From a virus: a DNA stretch of 26,861 nucleotides. A program made the translations under genes and the position numbers. Below the pieces are notes generated by a model. It saw only the letters and a program-made list of their open reading frames with translations. It did no database searches and was not told the DNA's origin. The stretch is taken from positions 1 to 26,861 of IMG/VR virus record IMGVR_UViG_3300033571_001860; one strand, written 5' to 3'. Shown here one piece after another: positions 20,465-22,788 of the stretch (position 1 is its first letter; each line of letters starts with the position of its first letter).

Positions 20465-20480
20465 GATAGAAGCGTCTATC
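20465..20480 (-). other. Hairpin at the capsid stop codon
   Basis: GATAGA and TCTATC form a perfect 6-bp stem with a CGCT loop on the transcript. The stem begins within the capsid stop codon and ends 11 nt before the terminator stem. It may shield the 3' end of the capsid mRNA or influence termination of translation; no direct evidence. Confidence 0.5.
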
Positions 20481-21480
20481 AGTTAACGTTGCGGAAAGCA
20501 CCGGCACAGGACACCCGGACAGGGCCCGCACCATAGGCCAGACGGCCCACGATCACATCACCCTGGTAGATGACCTTGGTATCAGCACCAGTGGTCTGAA
20601 CCGAAGGACCGATGGCTTCAACCACACCAGCAGCATCACGATGGAAGATCAGGCCGCAGGCATTGGTGAAGTCGGTAGCAATGCCGTAGTTGTTGTTCTC
20701 ACCGGTAACGGCAGCAGCATCAATGTTGGCACCGCTGGGCGAGCCATACTTGCCGAGGAACGGAATGTTGTTCGACTTGTAGATCTTGATGCCGGCGATC
20801 TCATAGAGACCTTCGCCGCTGTTCAGGTTACCCTGGGTGTTGCCGTACTCACGGTTCAGGATGTTGGTGTCAACCTGACTGATCAGGGCGTAGTACTGAC
20901 GGGGGCTCAGAACGGCCACACGACCATCCTTAGGAGCAGCGATCTCGTCCAGGCGGGCAGCGGCTTCAAAGAAACCGTCCACGAGGGCCTGAGCATCATA
21001 CTCCTTGTTGGCACCCAGGTTCACACGGAAACCACCAGGCTCGCCGGTCACAGCAGCAGACAGTCCCGAAGCACGATCCAGAACGCGGAAGATCCGACGA
21101 TCATAGAACTCAGCCAGGCTCTGACCGATCTGACGAGCGATAGGACCGCGGATGTCATACTGGGCCAGGGTCTCGTTCAGGTCATAAACGAACGCAGAGG
21201 CAACCAGCAGGTCGTCCATTGCGATGGTGGTCTCAGCCACAGGCGGGTTGCCAGAACCGAGGATGGCGCTACCAGGAGTGTGGTAACCAGCCGAGATACG
21301 ACCGGTGTGGATGAATTGAGCTTCCTTGCCGTTACGGAGGGTACGGTTCTGAACCAGACCCTTGGCAATGGTAGCGTTACGGAAAGCTTCATACACCTCA
21401 CCGGTGAAGAGCTTCAGAAACAGAGCTTTAGTGTCGCCAGCCTTGTTAGACTGACCGAGTTGAGTAAGAGTTGCAGTCAT
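20479..21480 (-). CDS. Major capsid protein (T7 gp10-like)
   Basis: A 333-residue HK97-fold shell protein, near T7 gp10A (345). Start ATG at 21480 (MTATLTQLGQSNKAGDTKAL). Family landmarks: ALFLKLFTGEVYEAFRNATI, FIHTGRISAGYHTPG, AMDDLLVASAFVYDLNETLA, ARQIGQSLAEFYDRRIFRVL, VAVLSPRQYYALISQ, GIKIYKSNNIPF. There is no Shine-Dalgarno sequence before the ATG, yet the 447-nt structured leader and the terminator make this gene a separate expression unit. A T7-type -1 frameshift product is not possible here: the -1 frame closes at the end of the gene. Confidence 0.97.
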   Translation of the reverse strand: MTATLTQLGQSNKAGDTKALFLKLFTGEVYEAFRNATIAKGLVQNRTLRNGKEAQFIHTGRISAGYHTPGSAILGSGNPPVAETTIAMDDLLVASAFVYDLNETLAQYDIRGPIARQIGQSLAEFYDRRIFRVLDRASGLSAAVTGEPGGFRVNLGANKEYDAQALVDGFFEAAARLDEIAAPKDGRVAVLSPRQYYALISQVDTNILNREYGNTQGNLNSGEGLYEIAGIKIYKSNNIPFLGKYGSPSGANIDAAAVTGENNNYGIATDFTNACGLIFHRDAAGVVEAIGPSVQTTGADTKVIYQGDVIVGRLAYGAGPVRVSCAGAFRNVN

Positions 21481-21511
21481 TGTCTTTTAAGAAAGTAGGG
21501 TTATCACGTTT

Positions 21512-21523
21512 TCAAGTACTTGA
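21512..21523. repeat. Perfect 12-bp palindrome TCAAGTACTTGA
   Basis: A complete self-complementary sequence 32 nt upstream of the capsid ATG. As RNA it could form only a small hairpin; as DNA it could be a dimer-protein site. Function unknown. Confidence 0.6.
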
Positions 21524-21557
21524 GTTTTATCCGGATTTGAAGTATTCAGTTTTTGGG

Positions 21558-21601
21558 CAATACGTCCGTTGTATTGGGTATCCTCCGCAGAGGGCCAATA
21601 C
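21558..21601 (-). promoter_or_regulatory. Mutually exclusive hairpins in the capsid leader
   Basis: On the minus-strand RNA the order is GUAUUGG (21601-21595), CCAAUAC (21577-21571), GUAUUG (21563-21558). The middle element can pair with the first (7 bp, enclosing a further CCUC/GAGG stem at 21593-21582) or with the third (6 bp, 7-nt loop). Both pairings are perfect but cannot coexist, the geometry of an attenuator or switch about 80-120 nt before the capsid start. No ligand-binding class is recognisable. Confidence 0.5.
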
Positions 21602-21602
21602 T

Positions 21603-21616
21603 CCAGTTCGAACTGG
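21603..21616. repeat. Perfect 14-bp palindrome CCAGTTCGAACTGG
   Basis: As RNA it folds to a 5-bp stem with a UCGA loop. It lies between the tRNA-like element and the competing hairpins. The GTTCGAAC core recalls a tRNA T-loop, but the flanks cannot form a T-stem in that register. Confidence 0.6.
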
Positions 21617-21645
21617 GTTTTTAAAGAGGTTGTCCCATCCTCAAA

Positions 21646-21717
21646 AGGTCGAGCTGGATTTGCACCAGCACTGAGTTCCAGTTTCGCCTGGCTGCCTCTA
21701 CATTGGGCTATCGACCT
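21646..21717 (-). ncRNA. tRNA-like element (72 nt), possibly a degenerate tRNA
   Basis: The segment folds as a cloverleaf: acceptor AGGTCGA/TCGACCT (7 bp, perfect), T8-A9 in place, a D-arm GCC...GGC with A14, a T-arm GCTGG/CCAGC (5 bp, perfect) with loop TGCAAAT (tRNA consensus TTCRANY, one mismatch), and a 7-nt variable loop. The anticodon arm is abnormal: CCAG/CTGG gives four pairs with a six-base loop GCGAAA and no U33, so I cannot assign an anticodon. CCA is not encoded and U follows the acceptor. It could be a decayed tRNA or a tRNA mimic that guides RNase P cleavage of the capsid mRNA leader. Confidence 0.5.
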
Positions 21718-21777
21718 AGCGACCCCCAGGTTTGAGCTTCCAATGGATAGGCTTAGGGGGTGTTGTTTAATTTGATG

Positions 21778-21822
21778 GCCTACACGTAAACAAATGCCTC
21801 AGGGACAGCCAGAGGTGTAGGC
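21778..21822 (-). other. Inverted repeat GCCTACAC / GTGTAGGC in the capsid leader
   Basis: A perfect 8-bp stem (21778-21785 with 21815-21822). An inner CCTC/GAGG pairing is possible. The stem covers the final TAG of the interrupted short frame. Confidence 0.55.
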
Positions 21823-21893
21823 TCTATTTGGTTGTCCGCGCCAAAAGGCAGCGGGACGGTTCACCATCCACCGGGAATCCATCCGGTGTACAT
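21780..21893 (-). other. Interrupted short reading frame with internal UGA
   Basis: From an ATG at 21893 the frame reads MYTGWIPGGW, then UGA, then TVPLPFGADNQIEPTPLA and VPEAFVYV before TAG. The second half looks protein-like (Pro/aromatic pattern, no low complexity) although it has no start codon of its own. It could be a decayed small gene, a recoded 37-residue peptide, or chance. There is no clear ribosome-binding site. Not in the scaffold frame. Confidence 0.3.
21869..21888 (-). other. Hairpin CACCGG / CCGGTG early in the capsid leader
   Basis: A perfect 6-bp stem with an 8-nt loop; ACGG and CCGT further out could extend it as a second helix. It overlaps the start of the interrupted short frame. 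Confidence 0.5.
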
Positions 21894-21927
21894 TCGCCGT
21901 TACAAAGCCACGGACGCGGGCACTAGA

Positions 21928-22788
21928 TCAGAGCAGATCTCCAGAAGCAGCCAGACGATCTTCAACATCCATACGGTATGCTGGATCGTTGCGGTACCTC
22001 GGATCACTAATGGCCTGAGCTAGTTCGGCCTGAGAACGGAATCCCTTGACGGAATTACGGACGTTCTTTCCAGAGACCTGTTGTCCTTCAAAGCCCACGG
22101 AGTCCTTGTATCGTTGGTTAAGTGCCTGAACAGCAAAGAAGATCGCATCCTTGTTTCCGCTGTTGACTACGTTGTCATACGCAGCAACTTCGGTAGGAGA
22201 AAGATTGTCTGCTGCCCAAGCAAGGGTTTGGTTGTATGCCTCGTTGCCACCAACAGAATTGATGATGGACTGGGCATCAGCATCCGTAAGCACCTGAGGA
22301 GGAGCTGCTGGAGCATCCTTAATGCTGTTGAGATACGCCTCCACAAGTTTTTCGGAGGGCAGTTCCTTGAGCCGCTTAAGGGTCTCAGGCTTGAGTTGGT
22401 TATTGTTGGAGTAGTACTCCTCGGATGCCTCCTTGAGGAACTGGGCCTCTTCCGAGATCTCCGGCTCCTCTTCGGTTGTGGCTTCCTCTTCCTGCTCAGA
22501 GGCTTCTTCTTCCTCTACCTCAGCATCCTCAGCGGGCTCAGGTTCCTTCTGTCCAAGTTTCTTTTCCAGCTCTTTGTAGGCCTTCTCAAGATCCTCAGCA
22601 GACTTGAACTTACCAGCATAGCGCAGTTCTGACTCAGCATCCTCTCGGGCCTGGTCATACTTGCGCTGCTCACGTTCCTGTTCTTGCTCGATTAGCTTTT
22701 CGCCAACATCAAGGAGACGAGCCTCTTCAGCCCGTTGGGCCTCCTTTGCATCAAGATCGTCAGTTGAATCGAAAGTGGTTTCTTGCAT
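21928..22788 (-). CDS. Capsid assembly scaffold (T7 gp9-like)
   Basis: A 286-residue, highly acidic and helical protein that guides shell assembly and then leaves the prohead. The N-terminal ~75 residues are charged helix (ERQ/EQE-rich), residues ~75-115 form an acidic run (EPAEDAEVEEEEASEQEEEA), and the C-terminal third (QVSGKNVRNSVKGFRSQAEL) is more mixed, with a DPRYRNDPAYRMDVEDRLAA segment probably contacting the capsid protein, as scaffold C-termini do. Position between portal and capsid and the composition support the call. The ATG overlaps the stop of the 88-residue gene by 1 nt (TGATG). Confidence 0.9.
   Translation of the reverse strand: MQETTFDSTDDLDAKEAQRAEEARLLDVGEKLIEQEQEREQRKYDQAREDAESELRYAGKFKSAEDLEKAYKELEKKLGQKEPEPAEDAEVEEEEASEQEEEATTEEEPEISEEAQFLKEASEEYYSNNNQLKPETLKRLKELPSEKLVEAYLNSIKDAPAAPPQVLTDADAQSIINSVGGNEAYNQTLAWAADNLSPTEVAAYDNVVNSGNKDAIFFAVQALNQRYKDSVGFEGQQVSGKNVRNSVKGFRSQAELAQAISDPRYRNDPAYRMDVEDRLAASGDLL

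Follow-up and report, generated by a model that had tools for sequence, protein, structure and literature searches.

A tRNA-like element adjoining an abiF-type antitoxin RNA in the capsid gene leader of a T7-like cyanophage

Results

Organization of the scaffold-capsid gap

The window, i.e., the whole stretch of 26,861 nt that we analyzed (IMG/VR record IMGVR_UViG_3300033571_001860), belongs to a T7-like cyanophage whose main genes are encoded on the minus strand. The major capsid protein (MCP) gene (20479-21480, minus strand; PHROG 267, E = 3e-76) encodes a protein with 72% identity to that of Synechococcus phage S-CBP2, and the scaffold (head assembly) protein gene lies at 21928-22788 on the same strand (PHROG 1052, E = 5e-60). 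The 447-nt gap between these genes contains several elements, all on the minus strand. Read from the scaffold gene, these are a structured RNA that we named cassette A (21834-21921), an optional hairpin RNA of 51 nt (cassette D; 21774-21824), an abiF-type antitoxin RNA (RF03085; 21722-21760) recognized by its Rfam score and covariation, a 4-nt spacer CGCU (21718-21721) where a cleavage site is predicted, a tRNA-like element of 72 nt (21646-21717) recognized by its minimum free energy (MFE) cloverleaf and covariation, and a leader core (21481-21645) that gap comparison found to be common to relatives without the tRNA-like element. The 3′ end of the tRNA-like element is located 165 nt before the capsid start. 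The element is on the strand of the capsid gene and, as a preliminary description of the sequence had reported, in the capsid gene leader.

Comparing the whole gap to phage records by DNA similarity returned no match; anchoring on proteins and searching with element-specific patterns did work. No Syn5-type phage promoter, whose sequence we take to be ATTGGGCACCCGTAA, was found in the window, even with up to three mismatches.

Structure and identity of the tRNA-like element

The tRNA-like cloverleaf is real. Read on the minus strand from 21717 to 21646, it consists of AGGUCGA, UA, GCC...GGC, AG, CCAG, GCGAAA, CUGG, AACUCAGU, GCUGG, UGCAAAU, CCAGC and UCGACCU. The acceptor stem (21717-21711 with 21652-21646) forms seven of seven pairs, and the T-arm (21669-21653), the only one of its consensus in the window, forms all five pairs of its stem. 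The D-stem (21708-21706 with 21696-21694) contains 3 bp and the anticodon-type stem (21691-21688 with 21681-21678) contains 4 bp. The parts listed in the preliminary description, including U8/A9, are thus all present. The cloverleaf is both the MFE and the centroid structure in RNAfold (−26.3 kcal/mol; z = −2.34; 4 of 200 shuffled sequences folded as well). The comparative evidence presented below is far stronger than the fold. When the tRNA-like element and the abiF RNA were folded jointly, they formed two separate structures.

An intact tRNA is ruled out. The preliminary description had recommended tRNA finders, and neither of the searches that we ran called a tRNA: ARAGORN returned none over the window and the tRNA model of Rfam (RF00005) did not reach E = 5 against the element, even in a search restricted to 601 nt. 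The 7-nt anticodon loop with U33 that is typical of tRNAs is missing; the loop (21687-21682) is GCGAAA. The preliminary description was correct about these six bases and the absence of U33, but this loop length is particular to the window contig, since the nearest relatives present a five-base loop, GACAA. The element possesses the G53-C61 pair characteristic of RF00005 along with its acceptor and T stems, which covary. It also presents the roughly 12-bp stack of acceptor and T-arm that characterizes RNase P substrates (7 + 5 bp). RNase P and RNase Z both read the acceptor-T stack and the elbow and do not require an anticodon arm. An element that kept this stack and elbow and lost its anticodon fits recognition by RNase P or RNase Z rather than decoding. 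On the plus strand, a match to a plastid ycf2 family scored 17.4 bits, where the cut-off is 65.7. That family also matches the antisense of true tRNAs, so this match reflects the shape of a tRNA and not a plastid element.

Distribution of the element among related phages

We compared the gaps of 80 IMG/VR loci with a capsid identity of 87-100% (the window clade). Their lengths increase stepwise, from 170-200 nt up to 494 nt. All contain a constant leader core, and 5′ of this core they carry either optional cassettes (A, B [the abiF RNA], C and D) with the tRNA-like element or merely a short GGGGAC-UGCAAU-GUCCCC hairpin. Among the 52 distinct gaps of this clade, the tRNA-like element was found in all 25 that bear cassettes versus two of the 27 that are cassette-free, and the short hairpin was found in 25 of those 27; these gaps come from related loci and represent an association rather than 52 independent events.

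Three further capsid queries and ten named isolates extended the comparison to 164 unique upstream regions. We searched the 450 nt located 5′ of the MCP gene for a T-arm, defined as a 5-bp stem enclosing the loop T[TG]C[AG]AN[TC]. This pattern was found in 98 of the 164 regions, against 7.1 expected from shuffled sequences and two of 164 in the MCP coding sequence. A T-arm or a tRNA-like element therefore occupies this slot in most of the cyanopodoviruses sampled. The forms are diverse: true tRNAs in NATL1A-7 (tRNA-Gly, 70.5 bits) and L383 (tRNA-Trp), degenerate cloverleafs in L038, L066 and the window, and elbow-only forms without an anticodon arm in Syn5, S-TIP28, S-TIP37, L012 and L040. In S-CBP42 and P-SSP7, the 5′ half of the tRNA-like overlaps the terminal part of the gene that precedes it. 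The elements of Syn5 and P-SSP7 are unannotated in their records. The tRNA-Gly of NATL1A-7 is already annotated, and with so many relatives carrying such elements the claim that T7-like phages offer no described equivalent is not supported.

Two variants were also observed at this position. The tRNA-like of the L325 capsid leader presents a seemingly enlarged D-loop, for a total of about 89 nt. Many cyanopodoviruses (L203, L204, L206, L207, L413, L418, L420 and L421) carry in place of the tRNA-like a second class of hairpin with the loop CACCUCAGAGUCGGA.

Covariation of the stems

Because the elements in the count of 98 regions had been selected partly for a paired T-stem, only a test in which elements were picked by their T-loop alone counts as covariation. 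In elements selected in this manner, all four other T-stem pairs were formed in 90% of cases (mean of 3.80 pairs versus 2.59, with a maximum of 2.88, in 500 re-deals). Of 35 distinct elements, 25 showed acceptor pairing of at least 5 bp, whereas swapping 3′ strands gave on average 9.5 such elements and at most 18; the evidence for the acceptor rests on this swap test, as the automatic acceptor search is weak for single elements. The preliminary description had named a lack of covariation in the acceptor and T stems among relatives as one result that would refute its reading, and both stems covary.

These results indicate that the structure of the element is selected and that decoding is not, because the stems covary while the loop counts six bases in the window and five in the nearest relatives, and the anticodon arm is missing elsewhere. 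The element looks like a tRNA mimic under structural selection, a part of the earlier interpretation that our analyses uphold; its alternative of a decaying tRNA also holds in part, given the real tRNAs that relatives carry in this slot.

An abiF-type RNA precedes the tRNA-like element

The earlier interpretation missed the element located 4 nt upstream. A permissive Rfam search identified an abiF RNA (RF03085) at 21760-21722 of the minus strand, ending just before the CGCU spacer. It scored 33.9 bits (E = 2.6e-6 for the record), below the Rfam gathering cut-off of 37 bits, and homologs from the same module scored 39.9, 41.0 and 55.7 bits. The AAGCC...GCUCAAA core and the outer stem of abiF are present in the window, where the outermost C-G pair of the inner stem is U-U, and the helices of this RNA covary. 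No exact match to the abiF core of the window was found in genome contigs.

Genuine abiF RNAs (RF03085; AbiFr, RCd22) are the antitoxins of AbiF/Abi_2 and display the same hairpin and outer stem. The phage form differs from them in lacking a toxin gene in its records, in being present as a single copy and in being followed 3-5 nt downstream by a tRNA or tRNA-like element. No AbiF (Abi_2) gene was found in the window or in 34 other phage records (nine relatives and 25 module records), most of which are fragments.

We then searched for abiF RNAs with a pattern that includes neither spacer nor tRNA, and 56 viral contigs matched. Outside the window clade, a tRNA called by ARAGORN begins 3-5 nt past the abiF stem in 22 of 26 distinct modules. 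Seven kinds of tRNA are represented according to ARAGORN naming (Gly, Leu, Ala, Val, Met, Trp and Cys), some of these calls being themselves degenerate (L087 and L555). These counts are drawn from related phages. A spacer is present in all modules; outside the window clade it is CACU, and once CUCU. In the capsid leaders of L551 and L563, the element downstream of the abiF RNA is a tRNA complete except for the anticodon arm. In the T4-like isolate S-SZBM1, an abiF RNA of 55.7 bits precedes CACU and an annotated tRNA-Ala. A separate and looser abiF pattern yielded 16 stem-supported elements, five of them with a tRNA within 10 nt; these included some of the same modules, as well as L084 and L129. 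Finally, each partner occurs alone in some phages: the slot holds a tRNA-like without abiF in Syn5, P-SSP7 and L031, and abiF RNAs without a recognized tRNA were found in L131, L554, L568 and L574. This indicates that neither strictly needs the other.

Several abiF RNAs were encountered in other phages. Mycobacterium phage Thibault carries one (54.9 bits) and Arthrobacter phage Mimi carries one within a tRNA cluster (33 bits), in both cases with no tRNA directly abutting (records L579 and L580). In Synechococcus phage S-EIVl (L581, 1500-1600), an abiF RNA that is half-degenerate precedes UACU and a tRNA-like that is itself degenerate, all unannotated.

AbiF systems in Cyanobiaceae

In 5 of 300 Cyanobiaceae genomes, an abiF RNA (31.5-33.6 bits) immediately precedes an ORF resembling AbiF. 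Another such locus was found in Synechococcus HJ21-Hayes. Pfam confirmed Abi_2 at five of these six loci (138-168 bits), and PADLOC called AbiD at all three of the host loci submitted to it. Host and phage RNAs have ACACC...CAAA...GGUC(A/G)CU in common, and the likeness stops where the phage tRNA-like begins. The apical loops of the Cyanobiaceae RNAs differ from that of the phage RNA, and these hosts therefore need not be the direct source of the phage abiF.

Discussion

AbiF has been proposed as the ancestor of Cas13. It is a single-stranded RNA nuclease that is held by its RNA (PMC12737573), and the abiF RNA of Clostridioides difficile, RCd22, neutralizes its toxin in trans (PMC12373285). 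We consider it probable that the tRNA-like element is the 3′ half of a module composed of an abiF mimic and a tRNA, in which cleavage by RNase P makes the 3′ end of an antitoxin that disarms AbiF. The module would begin with an abiF-type antitoxin RNA that is an orphan, continue with the 4-nt spacer and end with a tRNA or tRNA-derived element, and the late phage transcript would be ordered as scaffold, structured RNAs, abiF, tRNA-like and capsid. Host RNase P would read the stacked acceptor and T-arm and cut at the 5′ end of the tRNA-like, between 21718 and 21717 as predicted. This cut would generate the 3′ end of the abiF-like RNA, with a predicted product of about 45 nt ending in ...GGGGUCACU-OH. 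If such a cut defines the antitoxin 3′ end, abiF RNAs would be expected to end 3-5 nt before many tRNA species, as they do. Bacterial RNase P favors U at position −1, and U is found there in 19 of 29 curated elements (boundaries set by eye). Host RNase Z may in turn cut at the 3′ end of the tRNA-like, which would create a new 5′ end for the capsid mRNA. Once released, the abiF-like RNA would bind and neutralize host abortive-infection toxins of the AbiF type (HEPN RNases), as genuine abiF does in trans. Both cleavages and the neutralization are steps that we infer. The window clade would then have retained a tRNA devoid of decoding as a signal for processing and punctuation, when many other cyanophages carry a real tRNA in this role. 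With somewhat less confidence, we lean toward the view that this is a widespread counter-defense device of cyanophages, in which host RNase P produces an orphan abiF RNA by means of a tRNA spaced by 3-5 nt, and that in T7-like cyanophages this tRNA has been reduced to a non-decoding processing tag, which also punctuates the capsid mRNA.

Alternatively, the tRNA-like might serve the capsid mRNA only, as a punctuation or stability element at the scaffold/capsid boundary that is either cut by RNase P/Z or shields the 5′ end by its structure, abiF being incidental cargo. T-arm or tRNA-like elements do occupy this place in the abiF-free phages Syn5, S-TIP37 and P-SSP7, and bare gaps hold a hairpin there. 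We nevertheless find this unlikely: the 3-5 nt adjacency recurs with many tRNAs, including in a T4-like tRNA cluster remote from any capsid gene, and cassettes of the window clade never occur without the tRNA-like. Processing to protect the capsid mRNA, as initially suggested, is unlikely to be the whole story because an abiF RNA sits 4 nt upstream. Since the tRNA-like also occurs without abiF, a function at the boundary between scaffold and capsid genes may have come first and may still be exerted in parallel.

The possibility of a decaying tRNA, raised in the preliminary description, would imply that the gap once acquired a real tRNA, which is now degenerating without function. Real tRNAs in the slot of relatives give this idea a starting point, and the T-loop (UGCAAAU), D-arm and anticodon loop of the element are degenerate. 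Neutral decay should however spoil all stems alike, and acceptor and T-stem pairing is upheld across distinct sequences. Relative to its close homolog in L555, the window element kept 19 of 19 pairs, five of which changed on both sides (two in the acceptor and three in the anticodon stem) and none of which was broken. These compensatory changes maintain the stems and render mere decay quite improbable. Least credible of all, and very improbable in our view, is a decoy or replacement for tRNAs attacked by toxins, for although phage tRNAs are known to counter tRNA-cleaving defenses and the element is coupled to an antitoxin RNA, its anticodon arm is the least conserved part (loops of 5-6 nt; wholly gone in several relatives), whereas an anticodon nuclease decoy would have to preserve precisely this arm.

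The components of the module that we favor, an abiF mimic matured through a tRNA, are already known separately: phage RNAs are processed by RNase P (PMC11143913), abiF RNAs act as antitoxins, and phages carry antitoxin mimics. An abiF RNA was likewise reported in a lytic T4-like cyanophage, S-CREM1, as an Rfam match with a conserved motif, and the portion of that article concerning it proposes no tRNA partner or anti-AbiF role (PMC9964418). The toxI-like locus of PhiTE is similarly a phage RNA that mimics an antitoxin to escape an abortive-infection toxin, although ToxI belongs to another antitoxin family (Blower et al. 2012, via PMC9391042). M3 RNA and C4 antisense RNA are also phage RNAs other than ordinary tRNAs that are matured by host RNase P (PMC11143913). 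They differ in being other RNAs, from coliphages, joined to no antitoxin or capsid gene, and the cleavage in our case is a deduced one. In mitochondrial tRNA punctuation and t-elements, polycistronic RNA is likewise cut at positions marked by tRNAs or structures resembling them; those cases concern organelles and the present one a lytic phage. To our knowledge, no tRNA-based processing is known for the PhiTE toxI-like locus. The literature that we searched, which covered few subscription papers, contained no description of the abiF-tRNA module or of tRNA-likes in cyanopodovirus capsid leaders.

If our interpretation is true, RNase P, an enzyme essential to the host, is put to use by phages for the maturation of an RNA directed against AbiF, and some of the "decayed" phage tRNAs discarded by gene finders would have a function. 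It would also offer a search rule, namely to inspect the sequence just 5′ of phage tRNAs. The tRNA-likes in the leaders of Syn5 and P-SSP7, both well-studied T7-like cyanophages, make the processing step testable in existing laboratory systems.

Other elements of the capsid leaders

Cassette D presents compensatory changes between the window and L012/L013, and its presence varies between near-identical phages: L007 and L008, which hardly differ from the window phage, lack it. It may be another trans-acting RNA. Nothing matched when 300 Cyanobiaceae genomes were searched with the model of cassette D (R1) and 201 with that of cassette A (R2); these searches had no positive control, and the negatives therefore carry no weight. 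The motif GCCCGYGUCCGUGGC...ACGGC of the 5′ part of cassette A recurs in other cyanopodoviruses (L234, L380, L392 and L394), within the core of their capsid leaders, so this cassette may be a duplicated leader module. In L041, L046, L056, L057 and L063-L065, an ORF of the LAGLIDADG homing-endonuclease type (WAAGLFEGEGS, recognized by eye) is inserted downstream of the leader core, ahead of the capsid gene. Finally, glutamine-II riboswitches were found a few hundred bases 5′ of the capsid gene in L203, L210, L413, L417 and L419, and more than 1 kb away in L414.
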